Positions 248-18,690 are shown, numbered from the stretch's first letter. The stretch is DNA of 20,467 nt from a virus (IMGVR_UViG_3300037220_000022:1-20467); one strand, 5' to 3'. Notes: a model not told the origin generated them from the letters alone. Made by a program: numbers and translations.

Positions 248-3200
248 TTGGCACAATCTCTCGGAACGCTCTTCGTCGACCTGAAGGCCAATACCGCTGA
301 CTTCGTCAGCGGAATGTCGAAGGCCAGCTACATTTCGAAGCAGGCCGGCCGAGACATTCAGTCGTCGTTCGCGAACGTCGGCAACATTATCTCCCGCGCT
401 CTTTCTCCCCTCGGTACGATCGGTCCGGCAATCTCCTCGTCGCTCTCGGAAATAGGATCGGCCGCCGGCTCCGCCATGAAGTCCTTCGGTGCGATGGGCG
501 GAGCTCTCGGCGCGGTCGCCGCTGTTTCCGCCGGCGCCGCCGCAGCCGTCGGCGCAGTCACGGCCGGCACAATCGGCCTCGCGATTCACACGGCGGAATC
601 CGCAGCAAAACTCTTTCAACTCTCGCAAGCGACAGGTGTGTCCGTCGAGGCGCTCTCCGGCCTCGGGTTCGTGGCGAAGCAAGTCGGCGTCGATCAGGAG
701 ACGCTCGCAAAATCGCTCGAGCGGATGAGCAAGTCCGCTTTCGCGGCTGCGACGGCGCCGGCGGGAGCGGTGAACGCTTATACGCGGCTCGGGATCGCGG
801 TCCGCGATTCCTCGGGCCAGATCCGATCGACCGAAGCGATCTTCGCGGACCTCGCGGCAAAATTCGCTGCGATGCCCGACGGCATCACGAAGTCCGCGCT
901 CGCGATGCAGATTTTCGGCCGCGGCGGCGCGGAGATAATCCCCGTGCTCAACCTCGGGCGCCAGGGCGTCCAGGATCTTCTCGACACGGCTCAAAAACTC
1001 GGCGTGGTGATGGACACCGCGACGGCCGCCGCGGCCGAGCGCTTCTCCCAGGGAATCGGCGTCCTCGAGGCCGGCGCGCAAGGCCTCGCGAACACGCTCA
1101 TGCGCGATCTACTGCCGGCGCTCACCGCCGTCGAGGACCGCATGGTCTCGGCGTTCAAGGACAAAGATTCCGGGTTGGTGAAGTTCATCGGCGAGCTCGC
1201 GGATCTTGTCAAAGGGACGATCGGAGTCGCCGACACCTGGATCACCGCCGGTGAGACGATCAGCGACGTCCTCGCGGCGATCGACGAGTCGGCGGTAGAG
1301 AACGGCCGCGGCGTCCACGATTCGATCGCCAAAGCGCTCGTCTTCGATTTCTCCGGAGCGGAAAAGGCCGCGAGCGACAGCGCCGCGCGCGTCGCAGCGA
1401 TCTGGTCGAAGTTCTCGGACACGAATCGAAAGCGATGGGCGGACGACACCAAGTTCCTGAAGGATCTGACCGCAAAGAGCTCGCCCTCCGCTCCGCCGCC
1501 CGGGCCAGGCGCGAAGGGCGCGGACACGACCCCTCTGACGGCGCGATCGAACGCGATCGCCGAGACGATCGCAAAGCTCATCGCGCAGGAGAACGCCGAG
1601 GGCCGGCTCGCGAACGCGATTTCTTCCGTCACCGCCAACACCATCCTCGCGACGGCCGCGGCCAACGCGCAGAAAGAAATCGACGACCTCGAAGTCCGCT
1701 CCGCTCGAGAAAAGATCACCGTCACGGAGAGCGAGAAGTCGACGATCCGCGACGTCATCGCGCTCACCGAGGCTTATAAAGCCGCTTACTCCGATAACAA
1801 GGCGGTCGAGGAGTCGATTCAGAAAACGACCCTCGAAACGAAATCGCTCGGCGAGCTCGCAAACGCCTACGGTGTGAGCGCCGAGGCCGTGAAGAATGCC
1901 GAGCTCGCGGCGAAGGTCGCGCCATTCCAGCAGCAAGCCGAAGCGATCGACGTCGTCATCGAGCATTTCAAAAAGCTCGGGATCTCGGCCGACCTGACGC
2001 ACGAGCTCGACAAAACGATCTCGGATCTAAAAAAGACGGGCGCATCGGCCGAGGAGCTCAAGCCGCTCGAGGACGCGTTCAAAATCCTAAAGACCGGCGG
2101 CGCGTCGGCGGACGTGCTCGCTCCGCTCGAGAACGCCTACACCGAGCTCACAACCAAGATTGAGCGGATGACGGCGACCGAACGCACAGCCGAATCCGCG
2201 CGCGAGTCCGCCAGCTTCGCCCAGACGATCACCGACCTGCAGCAGGAGACGCAGCAGCAGGAACGATTGACGCTTGCGATCCTCGCCGGTGCCGAAGCCG
2301 CGAAGCAGCAGAAGATCGAAGGCCAGGTCGAGCAATACGAAAAACAAAACCCGCTGCTATCAAAAGCGCCTGGCGGGGAAGTCGACTCCTACCGGCAATC
2401 TCTCCAGCAGCTCGGCGAGCTCGAGCGCGTGAACGCGGCGGCCGAGGAAGTCGCGGCGTCGCAGTCGTTCGAGGAGATTGGAGAGAAAATCGCGGCGCTC
2501 GAGGAGCTCCGCGCCAAGGAAGTCGCCGCCGGCGAGGACCGCAAGAATATCGCCGCCACGGATGCGCTGATCCATTCGAAAGAGATCGACTGGATCATCG
2601 AGTACCAGAAGTACGTCTCGAAAAAGATCGACTGGATCATCGAGTACCAGAAGTACGTCGCCGACACGACCAATCAGGAGCTCCTCGGAAACGCCAAGCT
2701 CTTCGATTCGCAACAGCAGCTCCTCGAGCAGTGGGACGAGGCCGCGATGAAAGTCGGCGACCTCTCCGAAAAGTTCCAGGCCTTCCTCAACGAGATGTCG
2801 CAGGAGGGACAGAACCTCGGCGAAAATTTGTTCGGCAATCTGAAGTCCTACATCGGCGGCGTCGAAGATCAGCTCGCGAAGCTCGTCGTCACGGGCCGCG
2901 CTAACTTCCAGAAATTGATGGAGAGTTTCGAAGAGTCGCTCGTTAAGTCGACGATCCAGAAAGGCGTGAGCGCACTCTCGGGCGGCCTCGAGACGGCGAT
3001 CTTCGGCGAGAAATTCCCTGGCGAGAAAGAGGGCAAGCTCGGCGCGAGTGCGGGAAACCCGATGTTCGTCCGGGAAGTGAACGCGCGCGCCGGCGGCGTG
3101 GCGGCCGCTCCGATCGGCGGATCAAATTCTTCTCTCTCGGGTATTGCGCCAGGCGCGCCGGCAACGCCTCCGTTTTTCTCCCCTTCGGAAGCGGCCGCGA

Positions 3201-5644
3201 TCGGCGCGCCCGGGCTCGGGCCCTCTGGATCCTCGTTATCGGATCTCGCGGCGGCAGCCGACAAGCCCGATGGCTCAACGAGCACGAACGCCTTCTACGT
3301 AACCCCGGTCGATGAGGCGGGCGACGCCATAGGCGGAAAGCGAGCAGGGGGTGCCTCACCCGAATCGCCGAGTTCTTCCTTCTCGATTGCCGAGCCCGAC
3401 TTTTCCGGCCTCTCGCCGGCGGAAACGCCGAGCTCCTCGTTTGCGATCGTTCCGCCGTGGGCACCGCCTGCAGTGGCCGGAGGATCCTCGATCGCAAGTC
3501 CTTCGACGACGTCGGCGACTTCTAACGACTTTTCCTCGCTCCTCGCGAGCTCGTCCGCGTCGACTTCGTTTCCGCTCGCGGTGACAAATTCGTCGACCGC
3601 GACGGAGACGGAGGCCTCGCCCTTCACTTCGACGACCGAGAACAGTTTTTACAATCTCCTGGCGAAGGGGCCCTCCGCGTCGCCGTTCGCTATTCCGTCC
3701 GCTGCGCCAACGGTCCTGCCGGCGACGAACTCCTCGTTCTCGTCACTCGCAACCGGGGCGGCGACGCCTCCTTTTTTATCGCCCTCGGCAGCATCGGTGA
3801 TCTCGCCGGCGGCGGGGGCTTCCTCCAACTCGACGGCCGAAAGTAATTTCTACAATCTGCTCGCCTCGCAAAATTCTTCGTACTCGACGGGGCCCGAACG
3901 GCCGGGCCCGCTTCCCGCTATTGAATCCCGGAGCTCGTCGTTTTCGTTCACGGCGCCCGCGGCCGAGCCATCGTCACCCAGCTCGACGTCGAACAATTTA
4001 TCGACGTTCTTCGCCGCTCCGAATTCATCTTTTTCATCGATCGCGGCTGCAACGCCGGCGGCAGGGCCATCCTCGAGCTCGGTGGCCGAGAGCAATTTTT
4101 ACAATCAGCTCGCCTCGCAAAATTCTTCGTTCTCTTCGATTGAGCCCGGAGAGCCGGTCACGCCGCCGTTCTTCCCTCCGTCGGTCTCTTCCGACCTCGG
4201 GAGCTCTGAGTACACCTCGACGACCGGGCCAAACTTTTACGATCTTCTGGCGGGTTCACCATTGGAAGGCTCGCCGGAGTCGCCGGCGGGCGCGTATGGG
4301 TTGCCTCCACTACCCAGCGCGCCGCCGATCGACATCACTTCCGGACTCGCCGATCTCGAGCTTCCGGAGAGTTCAACTCCTCCCGCGTTTCCTGGATCCG
4401 TTTCGACGACGATAGAAAATTCTCCGCTCACGACGTCGACCCTCACGAATTTCTCAGATCTGCTCGCGAGCGAGGCGGCAATTCCGCCTGCGCTGCCAGG
4501 AACGGCCGCGGCGCCGAGCGGCGGGTTGCTCGGAAACATCTTCGGCAGTTTATTCGGATCGAAGTCCGGACGCGGCGGCGCAGGCGGGCCGACCGGAGCT
4601 CCATCGAGTCCGCTCTACACGGTTAACGTGTCGGGCCCGACGTCCGGATTCAGCGGAGTGCCTGGGGCGCCTTTAACGGAAGGAAGCGGGGGAGGCGGAA
4701 ACCTGCTGACCGGCGCCGGCGGAGGCGCCTCCGGGCTCATCGGCGGTTTGTCCGTTTCGATTGAGAAGTTTTTCGCGAATCTTTTCGGAGTGCAAAATCC
4801 GAAGGGCCTGCCGACTTTGCCTGGCGCTGGATCTCTTTACAACGGTCCGGCCGTCCCCGGTTACGGCGGCGCACCTGGCGCGCCGAGCTCGCCGCTCGGC
4901 ATCCTCGGCTCGCTGCTTCCTATTCCCGGCGCCACAACTGGAACAGGATCGCTCGGCACGGCCGCAAATCCGATGTACGTGATCGTCGTCTCCGGCGCCG
5001 CGGGACCGCTTTCGCCGTCGACGTCGTCGTTCGCAAATCTCGGCGCGCCTGGCTCTGAGCCCGTCGGCTCTTTTTACAGCGGTCCGGAAGTTCCAGGCTA
5101 CGGCGGCGGTGATGAAGATCTCGGCGATACGAGCTCGAGCGCGCCGGCCGGAGGTCTCAGCGGAATCCTCGCGATGTTCAAGTCGCAAGGCTCTAGCAGC
5201 TCGACGGCGCTCGGCACGGCGGCCAATCCGATGTACGTCATCGACGCCGAAGGCGGATCGGGCAGCGGAGGCCTCGGCGGCGGAGGATCTCTTGGCGGTT
5301 TGTTCGGGTCTGGCGGAGATGATTCCGGCTCCGCGTCGGGCGCGGACGATTCAGGCGGAGACCTCGGTGATCTCTTCGGCGGATTCATGGCCTCGGGCGG
5401 CGACGTGATGCCGGGCCAGGCTTACATCGTAGGTGAGCGACGTCCCGAGCTCTTCATCCCTGGACAGAGCGGACACATTCACCCGACGACAGATCTGCCG
5501 GGCTCCGGCGGCGGCCACACAACCCAAGTCAGCGCGCACTTCCACGGCGTCACCGATATGGATTCTTTCCGCAAGTCGCAAGGCCAGATCTTGAGCGAGC
5601 TCCATCGCACGGTCTCGATCGCGAACGAACGGAATCGGAGGTAG
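248..5644 (+). CDS. Tail tape measure protein, 1798 aa, with long Ser/Pro-rich repeat region
   Basis: This protein would set tail length and fill the tail tube before DNA ejection. The start is TTG at 248, one base after the previous stop; it gives MAQSLGTLFVDLKANTADF, the usual tape-measure N-terminus, and no better ATG exists nearby. Order of parts: N-terminal helix (about 1-45); Gly/Ala hydrophobic stretch (about 70-115), a likely membrane-active segment; the motif ATGVSVEALSGLGFVAKQVG (about 128-147) seen in many tape measures; long charged coiled-coil region (about 430-900); Ser/Thr/Pro/Gly-rich low-complexity region (about 930-1700); C-terminal block with GQAYIVGERRPELFIPG, a hallmark of lambda-type tape measures. 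At about 1.5 Angstrom per residue a fully helical protein of this size would imply a tail of roughly 270 nm, but the non-helical region makes that uncertain. No peptidase domain was noticed. It ends 4 bases before the DUF2460 gene. Confidence 0.93.
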   Translation: MAQSLGTLFVDLKANTADFVSGMSKASYISKQAGRDIQSSFANVGNIISRALSPLGTIGPAISSSLSEIGSAAGSAMKSFGAMGGALGAVAAVSAGAAAAVGAVTAGTIGLAIHTAESAAKLFQLSQATGVSVEALSGLGFVAKQVGVDQETLAKSLERMSKSAFAAATAPAGAVNAYTRLGIAVRDSSGQIRSTEAIFADLAAKFAAMPDGITKSALAMQIFGRGGAEIIPVLNLGRQGVQDLLDTAQKLGVVMDTATAAAAERFSQGIGVLEAGAQGLANTLMRDLLPALTAVEDRMVSAFKDKDSGLVKFIGELADLVKGTIGVADTWITAGETISDVLAAIDESAVENGRGVHDSIAKALVFDFSGAEKAASDSAARVAAIWSKFSDTNRKRWADDTKFLKDLTAKSSPSAPPPGPGAKGADTTPLTARSNAIAETIAKLIAQENAEGRLANAISSVTANTILATAAANAQKEIDDLEVRSAREKITVTESEKSTIRDVIALTEAYKAAYSDNKAVEESIQKTTLETKSLGELANAYGVSAEAVKNAELAAKVAPFQQQAEAIDVVIEHFKKLGISADLTHELDKTISDLKKTGASAEELKPLEDAFKILKTGGASADVLAPLENAYTELTTKIERMTATERTAESARESASFAQTITDLQQETQQQERLTLAILAGAEAAKQQKIEGQVEQYEKQNPLLSKAPGGEVDSYRQSLQQLGELERVNAAAEEVAASQSFEEIGEKIAALEELRAKEVAAGEDRKNIAATDALIHSKEIDWIIEYQKYVSKKIDWIIEYQKYVADTTNQELLGNAKLFDSQQQLLEQWDEAAMKVGDLSEKFQAFLNEMSQEGQNLGENLFGNLKSYIGGVEDQLAKLVVTGRANFQKLMESFEESLVKSTIQKGVSALSGGLETAIFGEKFPGEKEGKLGASAGNPMFVREVNARAGGVAAAPIGGSNSSLSGIAPGAPATPPFFSPSEAAAIGAPGLGPSGSSLSDLAAAADKPDGSTSTNAFYVTPVDEAGDAIGGKRAGGASPESPSSSFSIAEPDFSGLSPAETPSSSFAIVPPWAPPAVAGGSSIASPSTTSATSNDFSSLLASSSASTSFPLAVTNSSTATETEASPFTSTTENSFYNLLAKGPSASPFAIPSAAPTVLPATNSSFSSLATGAATPPFLSPSAASVISPAAGASSNSTAESNFYNLLASQNSSYSTGPERPGPLPAIESRSSSFSFTAPAAEPSSPSSTSNNLSTFFAAPNSSFSSIAAATPAAGPSSSSVAESNFYNQLASQNSSFSSIEPGEPVTPPFFPPSVSSDLGSSEYTSTTGPNFYDLLAGSPLEGSPESPAGAYGLPPLPSAPPIDITSGLADLELPESSTPPAFPGSVSTTIENSPLTTSTLTNFSDLLASEAAIPPALPGTAAAPSGGLLGNIFGSLFGSKSGRGGAGGPTGAPSSPLYTVNVSGPTSGFSGVPGAPLTEGSGGGGNLLTGAGGGASGLIGGLSVSIEKFFANLFGVQNPKGLPTLPGAGSLYNGPAVPGYGGAPGAPSSPLGILGSLLPIPGATTGTGSLGTAANPMYVIVVSGAAGPLSPSTSSFANLGAPGSEPVGSFYSGPEVPGYGGGDEDLGDTSSSAPAGGLSGILAMFKSQGSSSSTALGTAANPMYVIDAEGGSGSGGLGGGGSLGGLFGSGGDDSGSASGADDSGGDLGDLFGGFMASGGDVMPGQAYIVGERRPELFIPGQSGHIHPTTDLPGSGGGHTTQVSAHFHGVTDMDSFRKSQGQILSELHRTVSIANERNRR
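2576..2659 (+). repeat. 42-bp perfect-phase tandem duplication in the tape measure gene
   Basis: Two back-to-back 42-bp units (2576-2617 and 2618-2659) differ at one base. Each encodes 14 residues containing KIDWIIEYQKYV or the variant with E for K. The duplication keeps the frame and adds two heptads to the coiled-coil region at about residues 777-804. The near identity points to a recent event. Confidence 0.95.
3521..4474 (+). repeat. Degenerate coding repeats (N-F-Y-x-L-L-A-S type) in the tape measure gene
   Basis: A short motif recurs about every 40-85 residues within Ser/Pro-rich sequence: SNDFSSLLAS (3521-3550), NSFYNLLAK (from 3641), SNFYNLLASQNSS (around 3843-3881), SNFYNQLASQNSS (around 4091-4130), PNFYDLLAG (around 4230-4256) and TNFSDLLAS (4445-4471). 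Two copies share an exact 23-bp block (3859-3881 and 4108-4130). Outside this span the same gene carries other pairs: GTAANPMYVI at about 4956-4985 and 5214-5243, and YxGPxVPGYGG at about 4840-4870 and 5076-5106. The pattern suggests growth by internal duplication. Confidence 0.85.
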
Positions 5645-6820: not shown

Positions 6821-7756
6821 ATGAAGACCTGCTCAGGAGCCCTCAAAGCTCACCTCCAGTCAAACCCGATGTCGCTTGCGTTTCTGTGGAAGATCAAGCG
6901 CACCGACGGGACCATCCTCGGCTTTACCACTTTCGACTCCGACATCAGCTACGACGACGGTCTCGGCGATGGGGCGACGAACTATCTATGCAGCACGGGA
7001 TTTCTCGCCACGGCGAACTCGAGCAAGTCCGATCTCTCGGTCGACAACTCCGAGGCCGCGGGATTCCTAGAGTCGAATTCCATCCTCGAAAGCGACATCC
7101 GCGCGGGGCTCTACGACGACGCGCTAATCTGGATCCGCGTCGTCAATTGGGCCGATCTCACGATGGGAGATCTTCTGCTCCGGACGGGAACCGTCGGCCA
7201 GGTGAAGATGGCAGCCGGCGCGTTTCAAGCGGAGATCCGCGGGCTCTGTTACAAGCTCTCGACTGTGATCGGATCGCTCTTCGGTCCGATCTGCCGCTCG
7301 CAGTTTGGAAGCGGAGCAAACGGCATCGACATGCAGTCTCAGTGGCTCTGTATGGTCGACGTCACGGCGTACGCGCAAACCGGGTACGTGTCGAGCGTGC
7401 CGGACGCGCTGCATCTTGTTCCGCTCGCAACGGGCGGCGTCGTGCTGAAGCAGGTCGGAAGCGCAACGCCGACGGCCGCGGCGCCGGCGGATTGGTTTGA
7501 TGACGGCTATATCGAATTTACGAGCGGGGCGCTCGACGGCCAGGCGTTCGAGATCCGCTCCTGGGACGGAACGACGCTCACGCTTTACCTTCCGCTTCCC
7601 GCAATGCCGGCCGTGAACGATACGTTCTCGATCGAGCCCGGGTGCGATCACACCGTCTACGACTGCAATTATAAATTCGGGAACATCGTCAACTTTCACG
7701 GAGAGCCGTTCATGCCGGGCATGGATAGCATCTTGAATTATCCGAATGCCGACTAG
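6821..7756 (+). CDS. DUF2163 / phage BR0599 family tail protein (GTA orfg13-like)
   Basis: This 311-aa protein has the two-part layout of the TIGR02218 family: an N-terminal DUF2163 domain (about 1-165, with WKIKRTDGTILGFTTFD and SDLSVDNSE) and a C-terminal BR0599 domain (about 215-311, with the Cys-containing GCDHTVYDCNYKFGN and NFHGEPFMPG). Cys275 and Cys282, with Cys residues near GLCYKLS and GPICRSQFG, may form metal or disulfide sites as in relatives. In gene transfer agents the equivalent protein lies in the distal tail between the DUF2460 protein and the peptidase. The start ATG at 6821 gives MKTCSGALKAHLQSNP, which fits the family start; the ribosome binding site is poor. The 3' end overlaps the peptidase gene by 11 bases. 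Confidence 0.9.
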   Translation: MKTCSGALKAHLQSNPMSLAFLWKIKRTDGTILGFTTFDSDISYDDGLGDGATNYLCSTGFLATANSSKSDLSVDNSEAAGFLESNSILESDIRAGLYDDALIWIRVVNWADLTMGDLLLRTGTVGQVKMAAGAFQAEIRGLCYKLSTVIGSLFGPICRSQFGSGANGIDMQSQWLCMVDVTAYAQTGYVSSVPDALHLVPLATGGVVLKQVGSATPTAAAPADWFDDGYIEFTSGALDGQAFEIRSWDGTTLTLYLPLPAMPAVNDTFSIEPGCDHTVYDCNYKFGNIVNFHGEPFMPGMDSILNYPNAD

Positions 7757-8273
7757 CGCCGACGTCGTCGCCACAGCACGCCGCTACCTCAACACTCCAT
7801 TCGCGCACGAGGGACGCGTGCGCGGCCGCGCGCTCGATTGCGTCGGGCTCCCGATCTGCGTAGCGATCGATCTTGGGCTCCGCACGACGTCGGGAGTTCT
7901 GATCGACTCCGATATGTTCGGCGCCTACCCGCGGCAACCGTGCGCCGGCTACTCTACGCACGAAACCGCGAAGAAGACTTTCGTCATGCTCTGGGAGCGA
8001 AGTCCTGCGAGGCGAAATCCCTCTCGCGAGCTGCTCCCCGGCCGCGTGTTGAGCTTGCTCATGGATCCCCGAGTCGGAGTTCCGTTCCACGCCGCGATCG
8101 TGACCGCCGCGGCGCCAGCGCCTACGATGATCCATTGCCTCGGAGGCGGCCGCGCGCGTCTTGTGAATCAAAATTATCGCCGCGGTGATGAAGGTGTTCG
8201 CGAGCACATCATCGACCAAAAATATCTGCGCCGGATCGTGGGAGTGTTTCGTTTCCCCGAGGTCGCGGAATAA
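7746..8273 (+). CDS. NlpC/P60 tail peptidoglycan peptidase (GTA orfg14-like)
   Basis: This 175-aa protein is a cysteine peptidase of the NlpC/P60 type carried on phage tails, where it is thought to cut peptide links in host peptidoglycan during DNA entry. The catalytic Cys is in RALDCVGL (Cys32), the His in VPFHAAIV (His115), and a polar third residue fits His130 in MIHCLGG. The N-terminal ARRYLNTPFAHEGRVRG matches the usual 'ARxxLGTPFxHxGR' lead-in. There is no signal peptide, as expected for a virion protein. The ATG at 7746 lies inside the end of the DUF2163 gene, and the stop overlaps the next start (TAATG), so translation is probably coupled. Its place just before the hub genes is conserved in related tails. 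Confidence 0.92.
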   Translation: MPTSADVVATARRYLNTPFAHEGRVRGRALDCVGLPICVAIDLGLRTTSGVLIDSDMFGAYPRQPCAGYSTHETAKKTFVMLWERSPARRNPSRELLPGRVLSLLMDPRVGVPFHAAIVTAAAPAPTMIHCLGGGRARLVNQNYRRGDEGVREHIIDQKYLRRIVGVFRFPEVAE

Positions 8274-9187
8274 TGGCGAAAATTGCTCTGGCGGCCGCGG
8301 GCGGACTCTTCGGCGCGCTGCTCTCTCCGTTCCTTGGGCCAGGCGCGATCTTCGAAGGGATCTCGATCGGCCTCGCGGTCGGAGGGCTTCTCTTCCGGCC
8401 GACGCCGACTCCGCCTCCGTTGCAGGATCTCCAGGTCTCGGGCTCGGCCGATGGCGCTCCGATTCCTTTCGGCTATGGTCTCCAGCGCTTCGGCGGCCAA
8501 ATCATCTGGACGCCGGGGATCACGTACTCATTCGAGGAGCAATCGTCATCGGCTTCCAGCTACACGACGCTTTTCTCTTCGAGTTTTGCGGCCGCGTTCT
8601 GCGAGGGCCCGGCGAACATTCTCCGCGTCTGGGGCGATACCAAACTCATCTACGACAGCGACCCGATGGCCGCGACCGATTATCCGGTCGACGATTATCC
8701 GGCCTGGGTCTCGACGCAGCTCTACAACCCGGGCAATCAGGTCGCGTATTCGGGGCAGGTGTATCAGTGCCTCGAGACGAACACCGGCGTCGAGCCGGAC
8801 ACTTCCGGTACGACCGACTGGCTGCTTTTGAGCGACACGCCGGCGTGGATCGACACGCAGCCTTACAACCCGGGCGATGTCGTCAACCATGACGCGGAGC
8901 TCTGGGTTTGCCTCGCATCGAACACCGACGTTTCTCCTGGATCGAATTCGACCGACTGGCAGTCTCTCGCGAGCTACTACCCGGCGCCGACGCTTTATCC
9001 AGGGAACAACACGCAGCTCCCGGATCCGGACATTCAGGCGAGCGAGGGCGCGAGCGTCACGCCGGCATTTCGAGGGCTCTGTTACATGACGATGATCGAT
9101 TTTCCCCTGGCGAATTTCGGAAACCGAATCCCGAACATCCGGGCCGAGATCCAGTTCTTGAAGGTCGCGCCAACACTCGGAGGATAA
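8273..9187 (+). CDS. Tail-tip hub, N-terminal part, with two CBM5/12-like modules
   Basis: This 304-aa protein corresponds to the start of the large tail hub/baseplate protein (GTA orfg15-like) that usually is one polypeptide of about 1000 residues or more. The N-terminus has a Gly/Ala-rich hydrophobic stretch (1-41), then VSGSADGAPIPFGYGLQRFG (55-74), the conserved hub entry motif. The hub text resumes at YPGNNTQLPDPDIQASEG (242-259) and FRGLCYMTMIDFPLANFGNR (266-285). Between these halves, at about 144-232, sit two similar modules of the form W-x5-Y-N-P-G-x2-V-x6-Y/W-x-C-L-x2-N-T-x-V-x-P, typical of carbohydrate-binding families 5/12. The protein then stops, where homologues go on into the domain found in the gene at 9662. 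GAGG lies about 10 bases before the ATG. Confidence 0.8.
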   Translation: MAKIALAAAGGLFGALLSPFLGPGAIFEGISIGLAVGGLLFRPTPTPPPLQDLQVSGSADGAPIPFGYGLQRFGGQIIWTPGITYSFEEQSSSASSYTTLFSSSFAAAFCEGPANILRVWGDTKLIYDSDPMAATDYPVDDYPAWVSTQLYNPGNQVAYSGQVYQCLETNTGVEPDTSGTTDWLLLSDTPAWIDTQPYNPGDVVNHDAELWVCLASNTDVSPGSNSTDWQSLASYYPAPTLYPGNNTQLPDPDIQASEGASVTPAFRGLCYMTMIDFPLANFGNRIPNIRAEIQFLKVAPTLGG

Positions 9188-9193
9188 ATTCTC

Positions 9194-9661
9194 ATGGAAC
9201 CAAAACCGCAAATGGCCTGGGTCGAGGCCGTTGTGCGCGATCGCTTCGGAACCGTGAAATCGCGATCGCGATCGCCGAACCTCATGACGGCAGCCGGCGG
9301 GGCGTGGTGGGAGAACCAGCTTTTCGGCACTCCAGTTACGCCGACTCCGTACATCGGCATCTCGACAGACACGACGACGATTTCCGCGGGCGACACCGTG
9401 CTTGCCGGTGAGCAGACGACGAATGGCCTCGCGCGCGCCGCGGCCACCGTGGTCTACCCGGGCGGCGGCACGGAGACGGATACGGTGCAGTTGACGATCA
9501 CCTACACCTACACGGGCTCGAGCTCGCTGTCGATCAATAAGGCCGGCCTCTTCACCGCGTCCTCCGGCGGGACGATGATCCGCGAAACGAAACTGAATGA
9601 ACTCGCGACCCTCACCACGAGCGGAGACACGCTCTCGCTCACCTGGGACATCAGTTTCTAA
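9194..9661 (+). CDS. Beta-rich phage structural protein inserted between hub genes
   Basis: This 155-aa protein begins with AWVEAVVRDRFGTVKSR and NLMTAAGGAWWENQLFG, followed by a Thr/Ser-rich beta region (YIGISTDTTTISAGD, LTITYTYTGSSSLSINKAGLF, LSLTWDISF). This pattern is common among small beta-sandwich phage proteins annotated as minor tail, fibre or decoration proteins; the exact role is not known. The start ATG at 9194 is preceded by GGAGGA at the end of the previous gene. Its stop is immediately followed by the ATG of the next hub gene. It uses the same reading frame as the hub genes on both sides, and the span from one stop to the next (9188-9661) is exactly 158 codons. The gene looks like an added cassette in the hub locus. 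Confidence 0.7.
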   Translation: MEPKPQMAWVEAVVRDRFGTVKSRSRSPNLMTAAGGAWWENQLFGTPVTPTPYIGISTDTTTISAGDTVLAGEQTTNGLARAAATVVYPGGGTETDTVQLTITYTYTGSSSLSINKAGLFTASSGGTMIRETKLNELATLTTSGDTLSLTWDISF

Positions 9662-10582
9662 ATGCCGACTGGATTTGATCGGGCTTTAACTGACGGGCCG
9701 ATTCTCGGCGAGAGTGTCGTCGGTACGGTCACGAGCGCGTCGGGCGTCGCGGCCTTCGTCACGCAGATCGCGCTCGAGGTCGTCGTTTCGGAAGCCGAGA
9801 CGACTGTCGGATCGGGATCTCCTCCGATCGCCGGCATCGTGCAGGATCTTTGCGAACGCGCCGGTTTGCTTCCGGATCAAATCGATGTCTCGCTGCTCAC
9901 CGCGGCGAACCTGCAGCCGAATAACGAGTGCTTGGGCTACGTCGTCGAGCGGCCTACACCCGCGGCGGATGCGCTGCGCGTGTTGATGCAGGCCTATTTT
10001 TTCGACGCGTGCGAGAGCGGCGGAGTCGTTCGCTTCGTTCCCCGAGGACTGCCCGCAGTCGAGGAGGTCCCGGAGACGAACCTCGGCCTGGTCGAAGACA
10101 AACGCAAGGTCCTCGAGACGATGAGCCAGGAGCAGGATCTCCCTCAGACCGTCGTCGTGCTGCACAACGACCCGGCGCTCAACTACGAACAGAACAAACA
10201 ACACAAGGGCCGCAACGTCCGGATCGTCAACACCAAGAACCAAACGATCATCTCGCTCCCGATCGTGATGACGGCCGACCAGGCGCTCGCCGTCGCGAAG
10301 ACCTGGCTATATTTCTACTGGCTCGAGCGCGAGCAGTTCTCGTTCAATCTCTGGCAAGCGGTCTACATGCTTTTCGATCCGTGCGACGTGGTTCAGTTCG
10401 TGTATGAGGGACTCACGTTCCAGATCCGCATCACCGAGACTACGAGCGGCGCCGGGTTCTCCGTTTCGATCGCGGGAGTCAGTGAAAACGAAAGCAACTT
10501 CCTCCAGGGCGGCTCGCCTCCGATCGGAGCTCCGCGGCCCGTCGGCGGATCTCCGCTCCCGGTGACGCCGGTGCTTGAATGA
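9662..10582 (+). CDS. Tail-tip hub, central part
   Basis: This 306-aa protein matches the middle of GTA orfg15-like and related phage tail hubs (putative Phage-tail_3 type). Diagnostic stretches are AGIVQDLCERAGLLPDQIDV, the segment VVERPTPAADALRVLMQAYF with FFDACESGGVVRFVPRG, and a later KTWLYFYWLEREQFSF with FDPCDVVQFVYEGLTF. The start ATG follows the TAA of the preceding gene with no gap and no good ribosome binding site, so translation may depend on reinitiation. The end overlaps the next gene by 4 bases (ATGA). The Gly/Pro-rich tail of the protein (GGSPPIGAPRPVGGSPLPVTP) looks like a linker that in other phages would lead on into the C-terminal hub domain. Confidence 0.78.
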   Translation: MPTGFDRALTDGPILGESVVGTVTSASGVAAFVTQIALEVVVSEAETTVGSGSPPIAGIVQDLCERAGLLPDQIDVSLLTAANLQPNNECLGYVVERPTPAADALRVLMQAYFFDACESGGVVRFVPRGLPAVEEVPETNLGLVEDKRKVLETMSQEQDLPQTVVVLHNDPALNYEQNKQHKGRNVRIVNTKNQTIISLPIVMTADQALAVAKTWLYFYWLEREQFSFNLWQAVYMLFDPCDVVQFVYEGLTFQIRITETTSGAGFSVSIAGVSENESNFLQGGSPPIGAPRPVGGSPLPVTPVLE

Positions 10583-11532
10583 AGCAACTTCTCAGGCGCA
10601 CGGGCCCGACGCAACTCTGGCTCCGGGACATCCCGCTCCTGCGGGATCTCGATGCGAATCCCGTCGGCACCGGCTACTACTACGCGATGGGCTCGCGGCT
10701 TCCGACCTGGGTTAGCGCGACGCTCATGCAGTCAAACGACGGTCGCGCATTCGCGACGGAGGACGCGTCGAACCTGCAAACTTCTTTCGGCTACACAACG
10801 GCCGCGCTCCCAGCTCCGCGCTCTCCCTGGACATGGGATCGCGTGAATTCGCTCACGGTAAAAATGTCCTGGGGATCGCTCGAGGCCGCGGCCGAGATCG
10901 ACGTCATGAACGGAGCGAATGTTCTGCTCGTGGGCGAGGAGCTCGTCCAATTCGCGAGCGCCACACAAAACGCGGATGGGACGTGGACTCTTTCGAATCT
11001 ACTGCGCGGCCGGCGCGGCACAGAATACGCCTGCGCCAGTCACCACGTCGGCGAAGTCGTGCTCGTGCCGAAGACGGGCCTCAAGCGCGTGTTCGATCCG
11101 ACAAGCGTTCTCTGGCTCGAGTATGAGTACAAGGCGATCGAGACCGGCCAGCCGATCGCCGCGGCGCGCGCGCAGAAGTTCATCATCCGCGGCCGCGACC
11201 TCATGCCTTATTCCGTCGTGAGGATCCGCGGGGCCCGCGATCAATCCGGAAACCTCGCGATCTCCTGGATCCGGAGAACGCGGATCGGCGGCGCGTGGCT
11301 TAATCACCTCGGCCGCGTGCCTCTTGCCGAAACCCGAGAGGCTTACGAGCTCGAGATTCTCGACGCGAAGGCAGCCGTAGTCCGCACGATCGAGAGCGAC
11401 CGGCCGGCCGTCGCGTATTCCGTAGCCGACCAGGTGAGTGACTTCGGAGCTCCGCAATCGAGCGTCGCGGTCCGAGTTTTTCAGATCTCCGAATTTGTAG
11501 GGCGCGGCTTTTCCGCCGGCGCCGTTCTGTGA
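10579..11532 (+). CDS. Tail-tip hub, C-terminal part
   Basis: This 317-aa protein fits the C-terminal region of the same hub family. It has the conserved TWTLSNLLRGRRGTEYACAS segment, an all-beta domain with NLAISWIRRTRIGGAWLNHL and PLAETREAYELEILD, which resembles a fibronectin-III-like fold in homologues. The start ATG at 10579 overlaps the previous stop (ATGA), giving coupled translation. The 304 + 306 + 317 residues of the three hub genes add up to a typical single-chain hub length, which supports the idea that one protein is here divided among genes. The product should sit at the tail tip, probably contacting the host envelope together with the fibre genes just downstream. Confidence 0.78.
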   Translation: MKQLLRRTGPTQLWLRDIPLLRDLDANPVGTGYYYAMGSRLPTWVSATLMQSNDGRAFATEDASNLQTSFGYTTAALPAPRSPWTWDRVNSLTVKMSWGSLEAAAEIDVMNGANVLLVGEELVQFASATQNADGTWTLSNLLRGRRGTEYACASHHVGEVVLVPKTGLKRVFDPTSVLWLEYEYKAIETGQPIAAARAQKFIIRGRDLMPYSVVRIRGARDQSGNLAISWIRRTRIGGAWLNHLGRVPLAETREAYELEILDAKAAVVRTIESDRPAVAYSVADQVSDFGAPQSSVAVRVFQISEFVGRGFSAGAVL

Positions 11533-11539
11533 GGAAAAA

Positions 11540-11914
11540 ATGAGCTCTCCGAATCTCGGCATCACGCACGTCGCCGCATCGCAGGACCAGAAGGAGGTTG
11601 TCGTCAACGAGGCGATCGACAAGCTCGACCAGGCGATCGCCGGCACGCTCGCGGTCGCGATTGCTCCGCCGGCGCCGGCGACGCTCGATCCGAGACTCGC
11701 ATTTTCCTTTACGCTCACCGGGACGCTCACTTCCGGCGCGACCGTAACGGTGAAGCCAGTCGTCCGCGTGTTCGTCGTCGCGAACGCTACCGCTCAAGCG
11801 ATCGTGCTCTCGACCGGGGTCGCGCAATCGAAGACCGTCGCGATCGCCGCCGGCGGTCTCGCGATGGCGTACTGCGACGGAACGAACATCCTGATGGTCC
11901 AGGAGCTACGCTAA
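11540..11914 (+). CDS. DUF2793-like tail-associated protein
   Basis: This 124-aa protein begins with SSPNLGITHVAASQDQKEVV and VNEAIDKLDQAI, a close match to the opening of DUF2793-type phage proteins ('...LgLphvaagQaqKEvtvNeAl..Ld'). The rest is beta-rich (FSFTLTGTLTSGATVTV, VRVFVVANATAQAIVLSTG) and ends in MAYCDGTNILMVQELR, a form often seen at the end of such domains. These proteins are usually encoded just after the tail hub and are presumed to be tail-tip or fibre components; no biochemical role is established. AGGAAAAA precedes the ATG at 11540. The stop overlaps the next start (TAATG). Confidence 0.75.
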   Translation: MSSPNLGITHVAASQDQKEVVVNEAIDKLDQAIAGTLAVAIAPPAPATLDPRLAFSFTLTGTLTSGATVTVKPVVRVFVVANATAQAIVLSTGVAQSKTVAIAAGGLAMAYCDGTNILMVQELR

Positions 11915-14044: not shown

Positions 14045-14680
14045 ATGACTCTCAGAGAAAAATTTGAGGTCGTCGGAGTGCTCGTCATCATGGGACTCGT
14101 CTCGGTCGGGATCGAGCAACACGATCTTCGGGTGAAGGCCGAGGCCACAGTAGAGAAGCAGCAAGCGAGGATCGACGACGCGCAGAAGCAGCGCGACGCT
14201 CAAGCGGCCGCGGATAAAGAACGCGACGCGAGTACGGCCGCTGCGATCGCGGACCTGCAGAAGAAAGCGGCCGCGGCCGTCACGCCTCAGCAGATCGCAA
14301 AGTGGATTCCCGCACAGCTCGGAGATCTTCCGCTCCCGATCTCGATCGCAGTTCCGCCGGCGACGGCAGGGAATCCCACGCCGGCGGCCGTCGCGACGAT
14401 CCCAGAACAGGATCTCGCTCCGCTCCGAAATATGGTTGAGGAAATGCAGACGTGCTCGATCGCTCTGCCGGCCGCGCAGCAAGACCTCGCGAGCTGCAAG
14501 ACTCAGCTCACGGAAGCCGGCGCGCAACTCTCAGCCGCGGAGAAACAGAGGGACGCGTACAAACAGGCGCTCAAGGGCGGAACATTTTGGCATCGCGTGA
14601 AGCACGACGGGAAGGTTCTCGCGATCGGAGGCGCGATCGCCGCGGCCGCGATCTGCGGGACGGGCCACTGCAGCAAGTAA
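14045..14680 (+). CDS. Membrane-anchored coiled-coil protein, i-spanin-like candidate
   Basis: From ATG 14045 (GGGAG 11 bases upstream) the protein has 211 residues. An alternative GTG at 14027, directly after the previous stop, would add six residues, but that GTG is part of the better ribosome-binding stretch. An N-terminal membrane segment (about 9-25, VVGVLVIMGLVSVG) is followed by a long Gln/Ala/Lys coiled coil (about 35-80), a Pro/Ala linker, a second helical part (about 135-175) and a C-terminal hydrophobic segment ending AAAAICGTGHCSK. An N-terminal anchor with a periplasmic coiled coil is the layout of inner-membrane spanins such as Rz. The extra C-terminal hydrophobic end is not typical. 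No embedded outer spanin (lipobox) gene was found. It is the last gene of the late operon. Confidence 0.6.
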   Translation: MTLREKFEVVGVLVIMGLVSVGIEQHDLRVKAEATVEKQQARIDDAQKQRDAQAAADKERDASTAAAIADLQKKAAAAVTPQQIAKWIPAQLGDLPLPISIAVPPATAGNPTPAAVATIPEQDLAPLRNMVEEMQTCSIALPAAQQDLASCKTQLTEAGAQLSAAEKQRDAYKQALKGGTFWHRVKHDGKVLAIGGAIAAAAICGTGHCSK

Positions 14681-14818
14681 GCGACGGAAGGAGGGCGGAG
14701 GAATTCGAGTCGTCACTTTTCGCGGAGTAACGACCTCGGCCGCCCGGTTCCGTGTTCACCGCCCGTACCGCAGGAAACTCTAGCAGGGCTGCGCGGGCCG
14801 TCTGTAACGTTTTGAACA
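14681..14818. other. Gap between convergent genes, no convincing terminator
   Basis: The rightward late operon and the leftward secreted-protein gene end on either side of this 138-bp gap, so transcription stop signals are expected. A purine-rich run at about 14686-14703 looks like a ribosome binding site but no start codon follows. A distant pair of arms (GTGTTCA 14752-14758 and TGAACAC 14813-14819) is separated by 54 bases and may be chance. No stem followed by a T run was found. Confidence 0.5.
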
Positions 14819-15604
14819 CTAGTCGATCGGATTCGGACGATTCGTTACCTGTCCGATTTCGCGGCGCCGTTCCTCTGGGGTCTCGATCGTTACATCGGTC
14901 AGAGCGGCCACGATGTCTCCCCCTGGCCTGACTGCGTTGGGCTGACTCTCGTAGGCCCGAATGAAAAAAGATTCGCTGCTCCACGTCCAGCACCTATGGT
15001 GAAAAACCGCTCCGTAGCCATTCTGCATAGCGAGATCTTCCTCGGTCTGCGGCTTTCCGAACCGTTGCGCCAGCGATCCGGCGACCTCGTCGAACGACGG
15101 ACCGAATTGCTTCTCCAAAGACGACATGTTTCTCACCATGACGTCCTGGCCGATTCGAACATCGAACCTCACAAGCCTCGCGCCCTCGAAGGTCCCCTCG
15201 TCCAGTAATTTCTCGATCCGAGCGCCGGTGTCGACGCCGGAGATCAGCACGCTGCACCCGTCACGCGCTGTGCGGTCCTGCCGCTCCTTGTCCGCTTCCT
15301 GCATGCGCGTAAATTGACGGCCCGCATCCCCGACACCGAAAACGGAATTAAGTGCGCCGCCTCCTTTTTTCTTCGATGGCGCCGGAGAGCTCGCGACAAG
15401 ACTTCGGCACTGTGAAACTAGATCCGGCTGGCCGGCCACGGCCAAGAACTCTGCGATGCTCTCTCCGAGCGCATGGCCTTTTATTGTGGGCCCGGCCGGC
15501 TTGACAGGCGGCGCCGGGCGCGCCTGCAAGGTTGGGCTCGTTATCTGAGCCGCTGCTGAAATCGATGTGCAGACACAGAAAACCGTCACCACGATCGTCC
15601 TCAT
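14819..15604 (-). CDS. Secreted protein of unknown function (candidate moron)
   Basis: Read on the minus strand, ATG at 15604 follows GAGAGGAAAATAAA, a good ribosome binding site, and gives a 261-aa protein opening MRTIVVTVFCVCTSISAAAQ, a standard Sec signal peptide with probable cleavage near residue 19-20. A longer frame starting at 15625 is less likely because it would hide the signal peptide. The mature part starts Pro-rich, then has IKGHALGESIAEFLAVAGQP, a low-complexity KKKGGGALNS stretch, and a folded region with three Cys (QCRSL, DGCSVL, RCWTW). The family is not recognised. The gene is reversed relative to the late operon and lies next to attP, the usual place for cargo genes expressed during lysogeny. 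That role is inference. Confidence 0.75.
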   Translation of the reverse strand: MRTIVVTVFCVCTSISAAAQITSPTLQARPAPPVKPAGPTIKGHALGESIAEFLAVAGQPDLVSQCRSLVASSPAPSKKKGGGALNSVFGVGDAGRQFTRMQEADKERQDRTARDGCSVLISGVDTGARIEKLLDEGTFEGARLVRFDVRIGQDVMVRNMSSLEKQFGPSFDEVAGSLAQRFGKPQTEEDLAMQNGYGAVFHHRCWTWSSESFFIRAYESQPNAVRPGGDIVAALTDVTIETPEERRREIGQVTNRPNPID

Positions 15605-15618
15605 TTTATTTTCCTCTC

Positions 15619-15646
15619 TTGACAATTAGCGGGGGCGTGATAGCTT
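15619..15646 (+). promoter_or_regulatory. Sigma70-type promoter for the HTH/GIY-YIG pair
   Basis: A perfect TTGACA (15619-15624) is followed after 16 bases by TAGCTT (15641-15646), a weak -10. It points towards the gene at 15724, leaving a leader of about 70 bases that carries a strong AGGAGGG (15707-15713) 10 bases before the ATG. The -35 lies just upstream of the start of the divergent secreted-protein gene, so the two could share control. The weak -10 lowers confidence. Confidence 0.45.
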
Positions 15647-15723
15647 CGGGGCGAATTACAGCGGGACCCGAGCGAGTGTGACCTCGCCCGAGCCCCTGAC
15701 CCACACAGGAGGGACTATCTCCC

Positions 15724-15975
15724 ATGAAGGCTTCGGCAACTTTACACGACCCAGCACGCTCTGCAATCCGAAATTCCCAACCAACACGTAACGCGAAACG
15801 GCTACTCTGCTCCGAGAGAGAAGCGGCCGCGGTCCTTTCCGCGACGCCGCGATCGCTTCGCCTCTTGGCCGCTTTTCGCCTCATCAGGATCTTCACGATC
15901 GGAACGAGGAAATTTTTCAGACGCGAACGCGTGGAGGAACTACGAGCGCTCCAGTCTTCACGGTCTACTGCCTGA
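15724..15975 (+). CDS. HTH_17/excisionase-like DNA-binding protein
   Basis: This 83-aa protein starts at ATG 15724 with AGGAGGG 10 bases upstream. After a polar N-terminus (1-26) the segment LLCSEREAAAVLSATPRSLR followed by LLAAFRLIRIFTIGTRKFFRRERVEEL (about 27-73) follows the pattern of MerR/excisionase-type winged helices: helix-turn-helix, a basic wing ending in R-K-F-F, and a final 'REDLEAL'-like helix. The third helix is less regular than usual (LAAFRLIRIF where 'LIREGKLPA' is expected). It lies about 0.7 kb from the presumed attP, so a directionality factor or a local repressor role is possible. Its 3' end overlaps the frame of the next gene. Confidence 0.7.
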   Translation: MKASATLHDPARSAIRNSQPTRNAKRLLCSEREAAAVLSATPRSLRLLAAFRLIRIFTIGTRKFFRRERVEELRALQSSRSTA

Positions 15976-17381: not shown

Positions 17382-17578
17382 GAATTTGCCTCCCGGATCC
17401 GCTTGAGATACTCGGCCCACGTCATGCGCTCCGGCTGCCCGAAGACGTCTAGCGCGACGGAGAAATTTTTGTGGAGCGCATGCTTTCTGACGAAGGCCTC
17501 GGTTTGTTCCTCGGTCCCTCCATGCACGCCGCACATGCACTCGCCACAGCTAGCGCCCAACAGTCCCGGCACGCTCAC
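17378..17578 (-). CDS. Small Cys-motif protein coupled to integrase
   Basis: ATG at 17578 overlaps the integrase stop (ATGA) and the stop overlaps the next start (GTGA). The 66-aa product has a Cys cluster near its start (SCGECMCGVHGG: Cys11, Cys14, Cys16, His19) followed by a helical body (EEQTEAFVRKHALHKNFSVA) and a short C-terminal helix (MTWAEYLKRIREANS). A small metal site is likely from the Cys/His spacing. No family is recognised. The strict coupling to integrase suggests co-expression in lysogens. Confidence 0.65.
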   Translation of the reverse strand: MSVPGLLGASCGECMCGVHGGTEEQTEAFVRKHALHKNFSVALDVFGQPERMTWAEYLKRIREANS

Positions 17579-18690
17579 GAGCTCGCTCCAGTCTCTTCCG
17601 GCGCGGCGGCCGCTTCCTGGTTTTGCTCCTCACTTGAGGTCGACGAGTCGGAAGTTTTCGCCGCCTCGAGGCTCTTCACGGCGTCGCGCTTGTGCGGCGC
17701 CGAGAGATGCGAGTAGCGGACCGTCATCCCGATCGTCTTGTGTCCCATGAGGTCCTGGACAGTCCGGATGTCGTGGCCGGCCATCACGAGCCGCGACGCG
17801 AACGTGTGACGCAGATCGTGCCAGTGAAAGTTTCGAAGGCCGGCGCGCTTCATGGCCGCGTCGAACCATCGCCGGTTATCCTCCGCGCGATCGGCTTCGG
17901 CCGAGGGCCCGGGCACGACATACACCGCGGCCGCGCGGCCGCGTCTCAAAACTCGAAGAGCCGCGAGCGCCGTCTCGTTGATCGGGATGTGGCGCCGCTC
18001 GCCGTTTTTCGAATTCTCAACCGTCAAGATCTTCCTCGTCCAATCGACTGACGTCCAGCGAAGCCGGTATTGTTCACCGCGGCGCATCCCCGTCGCGAGC
18101 GCCAGGTCGAGCTCGGCGAGATGAATCGAGCTCGCGATCGCGGAGCGCAGTGTCTTCTCTTCCTTCGGCTCGAGGAAGCGGACGCGCGCATTGTTCTCGC
18201 GCCACAGCCGAACCTTTTTCGCCGGGTTCACCGAGATCTTGTCGTTTCGAAATGCGAGCGAGTAGATTCCGGAGATCGCCGCGCGGTAGCGGTTGCGCGT
18301 CGCCGGCGCCCAATCTTCGGGCGCGCCGAGCACGCGCATGATCTCTTGCGCCGTCACCTGGTCGGCCGCGCGGCCGCGAAAGTGGCCGAGCAGGAATTCG
18401 ACGAAATTCAAATTGTGCTCGTAATGCTTCCGCGAGTGGCGAATCCGCGAGAGTTCGAGGAAGTCCCTCGTGAGCTCCTCGAACAGCGCAGACCGCGGCC
18501 GTTCCGGAAAGAAGCGTTGCTCGCGGACCTCGATCTTGCGTTTATGGTAGGCGTCGATCGCGAGCTGCAGCTTCGGTCCGATTTTTTCTCTCCGCATTCT
18601 TCGCGCGCTGTCCGCGTAGCGGATCCAGTAGACCCCGCTCCCTCGAGGGCGCTCGAACACTCCGCGCGGGAGCTCCTCAGCCTTTGGCAT
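17575..18690 (-). CDS. int: Tyrosine recombinase (phage integrase)
   Basis: This 371-aa protein would catalyse site-specific recombination between attP and a host tRNA gene. An N-terminal arm-binding-like part (about 1-60, with GVYWIRYADSARRMRREKIG) precedes a SAM-like core-binding domain (about 68-150) and the catalytic domain. Catalytic residues are visible: Arg203 in ATGMRRGE, Lys228 in ENSKNGER, His291 and Arg294 in HDLRHTFASR, His317 in LMGHKTI and the nucleophile Tyr326 in TVRYSHLS. All are present, so the enzyme should be active. A Ser/Glu/Ala-rich tail (about 343-371) is disordered. The start ATG at 18690 lies inside the end of the RHH gene. The gene faces the tRNA-Leu remnant about 0.9 kb away, with three coupled small genes between. 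Confidence 0.95.
   Translation of the reverse strand: MPKAEELPRGVFERPRGSGVYWIRYADSARRMRREKIGPKLQLAIDAYHKRKIEVREQRFFPERPRSALFEELTRDFLELSRIRHSRKHYEHNLNFVEFLLGHFRGRAADQVTAQEIMRVLGAPEDWAPATRNRYRAAISGIYSLAFRNDKISVNPAKKVRLWRENNARVRFLEPKEEKTLRSAIASSIHLAELDLALATGMRRGEQYRLRWTSVDWTRKILTVENSKNGERRHIPINETALAALRVLRRGRAAAVYVVPGPSAEADRAEDNRRWFDAAMKRAGLRNFHWHDLRHTFASRLVMAGHDIRTVQDLMGHKTIGMTVRYSHLSAPHKRDAVKSLEAAKTSDSSTSSEEQNQEAAAAPEETGASS

Follow-up and report, generated by a model that had tools for sequence, protein, structure and literature searches.

A tail-tip megatron encoded in domain-sized pieces, with a fibre-superfamily gene at the peripheral-domain slot

In GTAs and many phages, the megatron opens the tail, contacts the cell and bears fibres. 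A 20.5 kb phage contig (IMGVR_UViG_3300037220_000022:1-20467; the window, that is, the whole stretch of 20,467 nucleotides analysed), with its tail module on the plus strand, raises the question of how such a protein is made when its N-terminal, central and C-terminal parts are separate genes, and a gene for a 155-aa beta-rich protein stands between the first two. A preliminary description had offered two answers: either the parts work as individual subunits and have acquired a cassette, or the stop codons are sometimes read through. We favour, with a probability of about 0.72, an RcGTA-like megatron made as separate polypeptides that are cut at domain borders and assemble non-covalently, with the 155-aa fibre-superfamily protein serving a modular peripheral slot. 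The features of the locus are:

248-5644, plus strand: tape measure, 1798 aa
5649-6296, plus strand: gene matching phrog_2913, followed by a small gene and then the hub
6821-7756, plus strand: RcGTA-type hub protein (Rcc01696-like), the megatron's upstream partner (PF09931, E 3e-42; PF09356, E 1e-23)
7746-8273, plus strand: peptidase-like gene at the position of the NlpC/P60 peptidase (Rcc01697)
8273-9187, plus strand: megatron-N, 304 aa, with the iris/penetration and adhesin-like domains of an RcGTA-like megatron
9178-9184, plus strand: Shine-Dalgarno-like CGGAGGA within the last megatron-N codons, 9 nt upstream of the ATG of the 155-aa gene
9194-9661, plus strand: free-standing gene for the 155-aa beta-rich protein (phrog_5417/phrog_4176 fibre superfamily), at the peripheral-domain slot
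9662-10582, plus strand: megatron-central, 306 aa (PF13550, E 7e-31)
10579-11532, plus strand: megatron-C, 317 aa, the fibre-binding domain (PF23666 Rcc01698_C, E 5e-28; phrog_4271, E 3e-80)
11540-11914, plus strand: 124-aa gene straight after the megatron (phrog_11585, E 8e-9; phrog_11660 tail protein, E 1e-5)
17575-18690, minus strand: integrase-like gene near the window end, judged from sequence

The coordinates, the lengths (304, 155, 306 and 317 aa) and the common frame of the first three of the four genes given in the preliminary description proved exact. So did its count of 158 codons from stop to stop, which is a mere result of the 6-nt spacer between megatron-N and the 155-aa gene and of the TAA of the latter abutting the ATG of megatron-central (0 nt). 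By chance, two junctions would both keep the frame in about 1/9 of cases, so the common frame carries little weight. The first three genes end with TAA (9185-9187), TAA (9659-9661) and TGA (10580-10582); megatron-C is out of frame, its start overlapping the end of megatron-central by 4 nt (ATGA). All four have a GC3 of 0.77-0.81 and codon use like that of their neighbours, and we conclude that all four are coding; the 155-aa gene read in either of its other frames had GC3 and codon use clearly unlike those of the neighbours.

Whether the stops at 9185-9187 and 9659-9661 are assembly errors, a concern already raised in the preliminary description, was checked against a second record with different ends, IMGVR_UViG_3300037146_000029. 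Over 12.9 kb the two share 99.99% identity: there is a single mismatch in the whole alignment, and none in a 12,465-base stretch that includes all four genes. This makes a one-off assembly error unlikely and, together with the recurrence of the break in relatives, led us to reject it as the source of the stops. The four-gene form was found in these two near-identical contigs only. Since head genes are missing from the contig, the genome could hold another megatron, or the 155-aa gene a second time, outside it.

Three features of the tape measure gene are recorded here as separate observations. It contains a near-perfect 42-bp tandem duplication (2576-2659; 14 codons twice) that is probably recent. 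The C-terminal part of its product (window 3000-5400) is long and Ser/Pro/Gly-rich, with loose repeats such as NFYNLLAS. Its length is 1798 aa, against 1102 aa in the nearest relative by tree (L053, below).

The megatron of RcGTA consists of iris/penetration (residues 1-46), adhesin-like (47-229), peripheral (230-744), central (745-984) and fibre-binding (985-1304) domains, the last attached via a 20-residue linker (PMC7296036). The three outer genes of the window correspond to columns 1-144 (with a second stretch), 747-973 and 987-1304 of the 1309-column phrog_4271, the match of megatron-N to positions 1-144 having an E of 2e-44. From these positions and the RcGTA borders, the first gene holds the iris and adhesin-like domains, the third the central domain and the fourth, which starts at the linker position, the fibre-binding domain, with the peripheral domain absent. 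Comparison with full-length proteins, as the preliminary description had advised, agreed: profiles from the window and its relatives matched the solved RcGTA and R4C megatrons (for megatron-N, E 3e-23 to 6tba/6teh and E 4e-25 to 8gtc). The iris/adhesin-like part is homologous to RcGTA 1-229, the central domain (PF13550) to 745-984 and the fibre-binding domain (PF23666) to 985-1304. Judged from these alignments, the gene breaks fall on the domain borders 229/230, 744/745 and 984/985 of the RcGTA cryo-EM structure. In the predicted structure of megatron-central, residues 52-283 form a confident central domain, with low confidence at both ends; the best PDB match of the model is the RcGTA megatron (6tba_8A, E 7e-11). 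Residues 1-51 are predicted to be disordered and include one TQ-ALEV motif.

The preliminary description was right that the three genes are the N, central and C parts of one protein, but its name for that protein does not stand. What is divided here is the megatron (Rcc01698, g15), and the RcGTA hub in proper naming is the neighbouring gene at 6821-7756 (PF09931). Like RcGTA (Rcc01698/g15; 6tba, 6teh) and roseophage R4C (8gtc), the window has the order iris plus adhesin-like, central, fibre-binding, with a hub gene and a putative peptidase gene upstream. The latter is suggested by its position and a weak phrog_329 match (E 0.002), NlpC/P60 being the annotation of the same slot in phages with a one-gene megatron. 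Unlike them, it encodes these parts in separate genes rather than in one chain, although other members of the family, too, depart from the single chain. It also has an additional 155-aa gene in the peripheral slot, and it lacks the TIM-like peripheral domain, for which domain and phrog profile scans gave no match in any of the four window proteins. There is no room for such a domain in three relatives with fused genes (L052, L062 and L071) either. A further difference, absent from the preliminary description, lies in the adhesin-like domain of megatron-N, which carries two CBM5/12 modules (PF02839, twice) inserted near RcGTA residue 145. This stretch of chitin-binding type (8690-8975) is kept in the aligned split relatives, and many distant fused ones skip that part of the profile.

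Is the divided arrangement peculiar to the window? Searching viral and genome contigs brought up about 40 distinct relatives, on whose ORFs we ran HMMs for N, central and C; from the genome contigs came four distant loci, their genes fused or truncated, and no host of the window phage. N and central are fused without an insert in three relatives, with 4 residues between them in L052, 12 in L071 and 14 in L062, and many others are fused with inserts of 200-580 residues. The two parts are split in thirteen (L003, L014, L015, L016, L020, L022, L023, L024, L025, L047, L053, L055 and L056), mostly with the insert joined to the front of the central gene. The inserts fall into about 20 mutually unrelated groups, two of which occur both fused and split (L003/L049/L059/L064 and L056/L065). 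Among ten sequences, mostly inserts of relatives, a Pfam scan recognized nothing but CBM5/12 in L022 and megatron domains in L120. L062, L008 and L011 encode C in a gene of its own (about 3 kb off in the last). Among the roughly 40 contigs, the window is the only one with both the N/central and the central/C break in one locus.

In a tree of central plus C with 41 rows, the N/central state changed at least five times, a count in which L036 is scored as split though possibly a broken gene, and the central/C state at least three times. The window groups with L053 (IMGVR_UViG_3300036903_000029; support 92/95). Like the window, L053 has an N/central split with a 6-nt spacer, a TQ-ALEV motif opening the central gene and the same gene order around the locus; unlike it, L053 has no 155-aa gene, and its central and C parts are fused (612 aa). 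Relatives without the insert or with fused genes, which the preliminary description had suggested looking for, thus both exist: L053 is split without the 155-aa gene, and L052 fused without an insert. A gene like the 124-aa one of the window also follows the megatron in L053, L003, L014, L015 and L016; the product of the 124-aa gene is a candidate for a fibre docking on the fibre-binding domain. Compared across these sequences, the N/central site appears as a modular slot in this phage group, and its repeated cutting and refilling speak for a modular part and against some trick of the stop codons. The 155-aa gene does lie between N and central, as first described, but it is not simply in the middle of the protein: it stands where the RcGTA peripheral domain or another insert lies.

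This recurrence bears on the idea that the locus represents a prophage megatron in decay, disrupted by mutation. The integrase-like gene makes a temperate origin possible, and L036 (3706-7545), where about 1.1 kb of broken but unshifted frame separates N from central, is possibly such a decayed case and not a true split. In the window, however, the breaks lie exactly at domain borders with a start codon at each, the domains are complete, codon use is intact and the second contig is identical. The same N/central break is found, moreover, in at least 12 intact relatives and in cultured phages. We give decay next to no credence, and the intact codon use and the recurrence of the break led us to reject it.

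The relatives also speak to read-through of the stops at 9185-9187 and 9659-9661, which would yield some fusions of N, the 155-aa protein and central beside the single proteins. The first three genes lie in one frame, with no further stop in the 6-nt and 0-nt spacers, which would permit it. Among the 13 split environmental relatives, however, 6 have the next gene in frame and 7 do not, against a chance expectation of one third in frame (binomial P for at least 6, about 0.24), with spacings between N and the next gene of -11 to +109. TAA, TAG and TGA are all used at this junction, and there is no common slippery heptamer. In addition, the 155-aa gene has a strong ribosome site of its own (CGGAGGA, duplex -9.5 kcal/mol), and megatron-C is out of frame anyway. 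Read-through is thus very unlikely, contrary to the second answer of the preliminary description, and on the comparison of frames, stops and slippery sites we rejected frameshifting along with it. The start signals (a Shine-Dalgarno sequence, a start at the preceding stop and an ATGA overlap) look like ordinary coupling of adjacent genes.

What, then, is the 155-aa protein? By profile comparison it belongs to the phrog_5417/phrog_4176 fibre superfamily: residues 2-155 match phrog_5417 with an E of 1.8e-7, and hhalign of its family with the fibre genes of Xanthomonas phages gave a probability of 97.1 (E 6e-11). Its match to the phrog_4176 fibres, which are longer, is confined to their N-terminal part. 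The Pfam family PF23140 (Gp80) was hit with 24 bits (E 5e-5), below the curated cut-off of 27 bits. A PDB search with the single sequence gave no match. The predicted structure (pLDDT 85) gave a Foldseek probability of 1.00 to a Haloferax virus HFTV1 tail protein (9h4p, 953 residues); PDB fold matches apart from this one were weak, fibre I (gp80, 8jou) of phage GP4, a podophage, being matched with a probability of 0.99 but an E of 0.013 and a TM of about 0.45-0.49. The model also resembles predicted phage tail-collar fibres.

Homologues of the 155-aa protein in viral contigs are scattered, and most are encoded by open frames that stand alone and are about 147-240 codons long. In 25 records (24 related phage contigs and a Chlorobiaceae phage), phrog_5417/Gp80 gave only far-off copies, in two relatives (L076 and L078). 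The closest homologue found (42%, 180 aa) is in L118 (locus 14459-15804), the relative behind L029, where it lies just past a capsid gene and a collagen-like gene, possibly as a head fibre, and about 9 kb upstream of an undivided megatron. Its place in the head region of a phage with a one-chain megatron suggests that the 155-aa gene is mobile between modules, and that its product might be a capsid decoration protein. The gene could, on this evidence, be an independent virion gene, for a head decoration or a side fibre, that recombined into a tolerant junction and makes no megatron contact; the scattered homologues and the lack of the gene in L053 fit this account. It is harder to square with a member of the same superfamily at exactly the same junction in distant cultured phages, and with an insert domain at that junction in most relatives. 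We regard it as unlikely, yet as an account to be taken seriously, under which the 155-aa protein would not dock at the slot and could belong to the virion separately or not at all.

The cultured phages in question are Xanthomonas phages Langgrundblatt1/2 and Pfeifenkraut and Stenotrophomonas phage Sonora. Like the window, they have megatron-N, a fibre gene of the same superfamily and then central plus C; in Langgrundblatt1, Pfeifenkraut and Sonora, N matches phrog_4271 (E 3e-52 to 5e-48) and the fibre gene both phrog_4176 and phrog_5417. Unlike the window, the fibre gene encodes 322-353 aa rather than 155, central and C form one gene with a phrog_4950 domain in front, and N matches phrog_4271 without the CBM5/12-type stretch. 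A fibre-superfamily gene at the N/central junction thus occurs in a distant phage group too. The split and the inserted fibre gene have these precedents, and in the literature searched we found no description of them as a divided megatron; the part of the Mesyanzhinovviridae and Xanthomonas phage literature covered here makes no mention of a split megatron.

The first answer of the preliminary description, separate subunits with a gained cassette, is thus supported by the common N/central break among relatives, the separate C of others and the order N, fibre gene, central plus C in cultured phages; for assembly itself we infer the following. Megatron-N, -central and -C would come from genes that are closely spaced and linked in translation, and the three chains would assemble without a covalent link into the trimeric tip of the tail, beneath the hub. 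In fused relatives the link between N and central can be as short as 4 residues, which suggests that their ends are close together and that a nick there could be harmless. The outer, peripheral slot between them would be served by the free-standing 155-aa protein rather than by a fused domain. That protein, seated at this slot in the virion, would most likely be a small adhesin or fibre-base subunit docking on the baseplate.

A repeat of about 17 residues, xRLTQ-x-ALEV-x, opens the central genes of the window (9749-9793) and L053 (6892-6987), the C gene of L011 (10098-10307) and a small gene after the megatron of L027 (10041-10190), with no clear match in other ORFs of the loci examined. The repeat may be a docking strand. 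More broadly, and as a tentative proposal that we hold at less than even odds, the peripheral slot would be a general docking port of RcGTA-like megatrons, filled by a fused domain, left empty or served by a separate fibre-family subunit, with the TQ-A-EV repeats as docking strands.

Several evolutionary cuts exactly at structural borders suggest that the tail tip is probably held by contacts and not by the chain, and they mark the outer slot as an exchange site for adhesion parts. For annotation, the arrangement is a warning that the 'hub' of such phages may be spread over several hypothetical genes, and that a 'hypothetical' gene inserted there makes a good receptor-binding candidate. If the subunit form is true, occupancy per virion could be mixed or partial, and adhesion parts could be swapped as whole genes.
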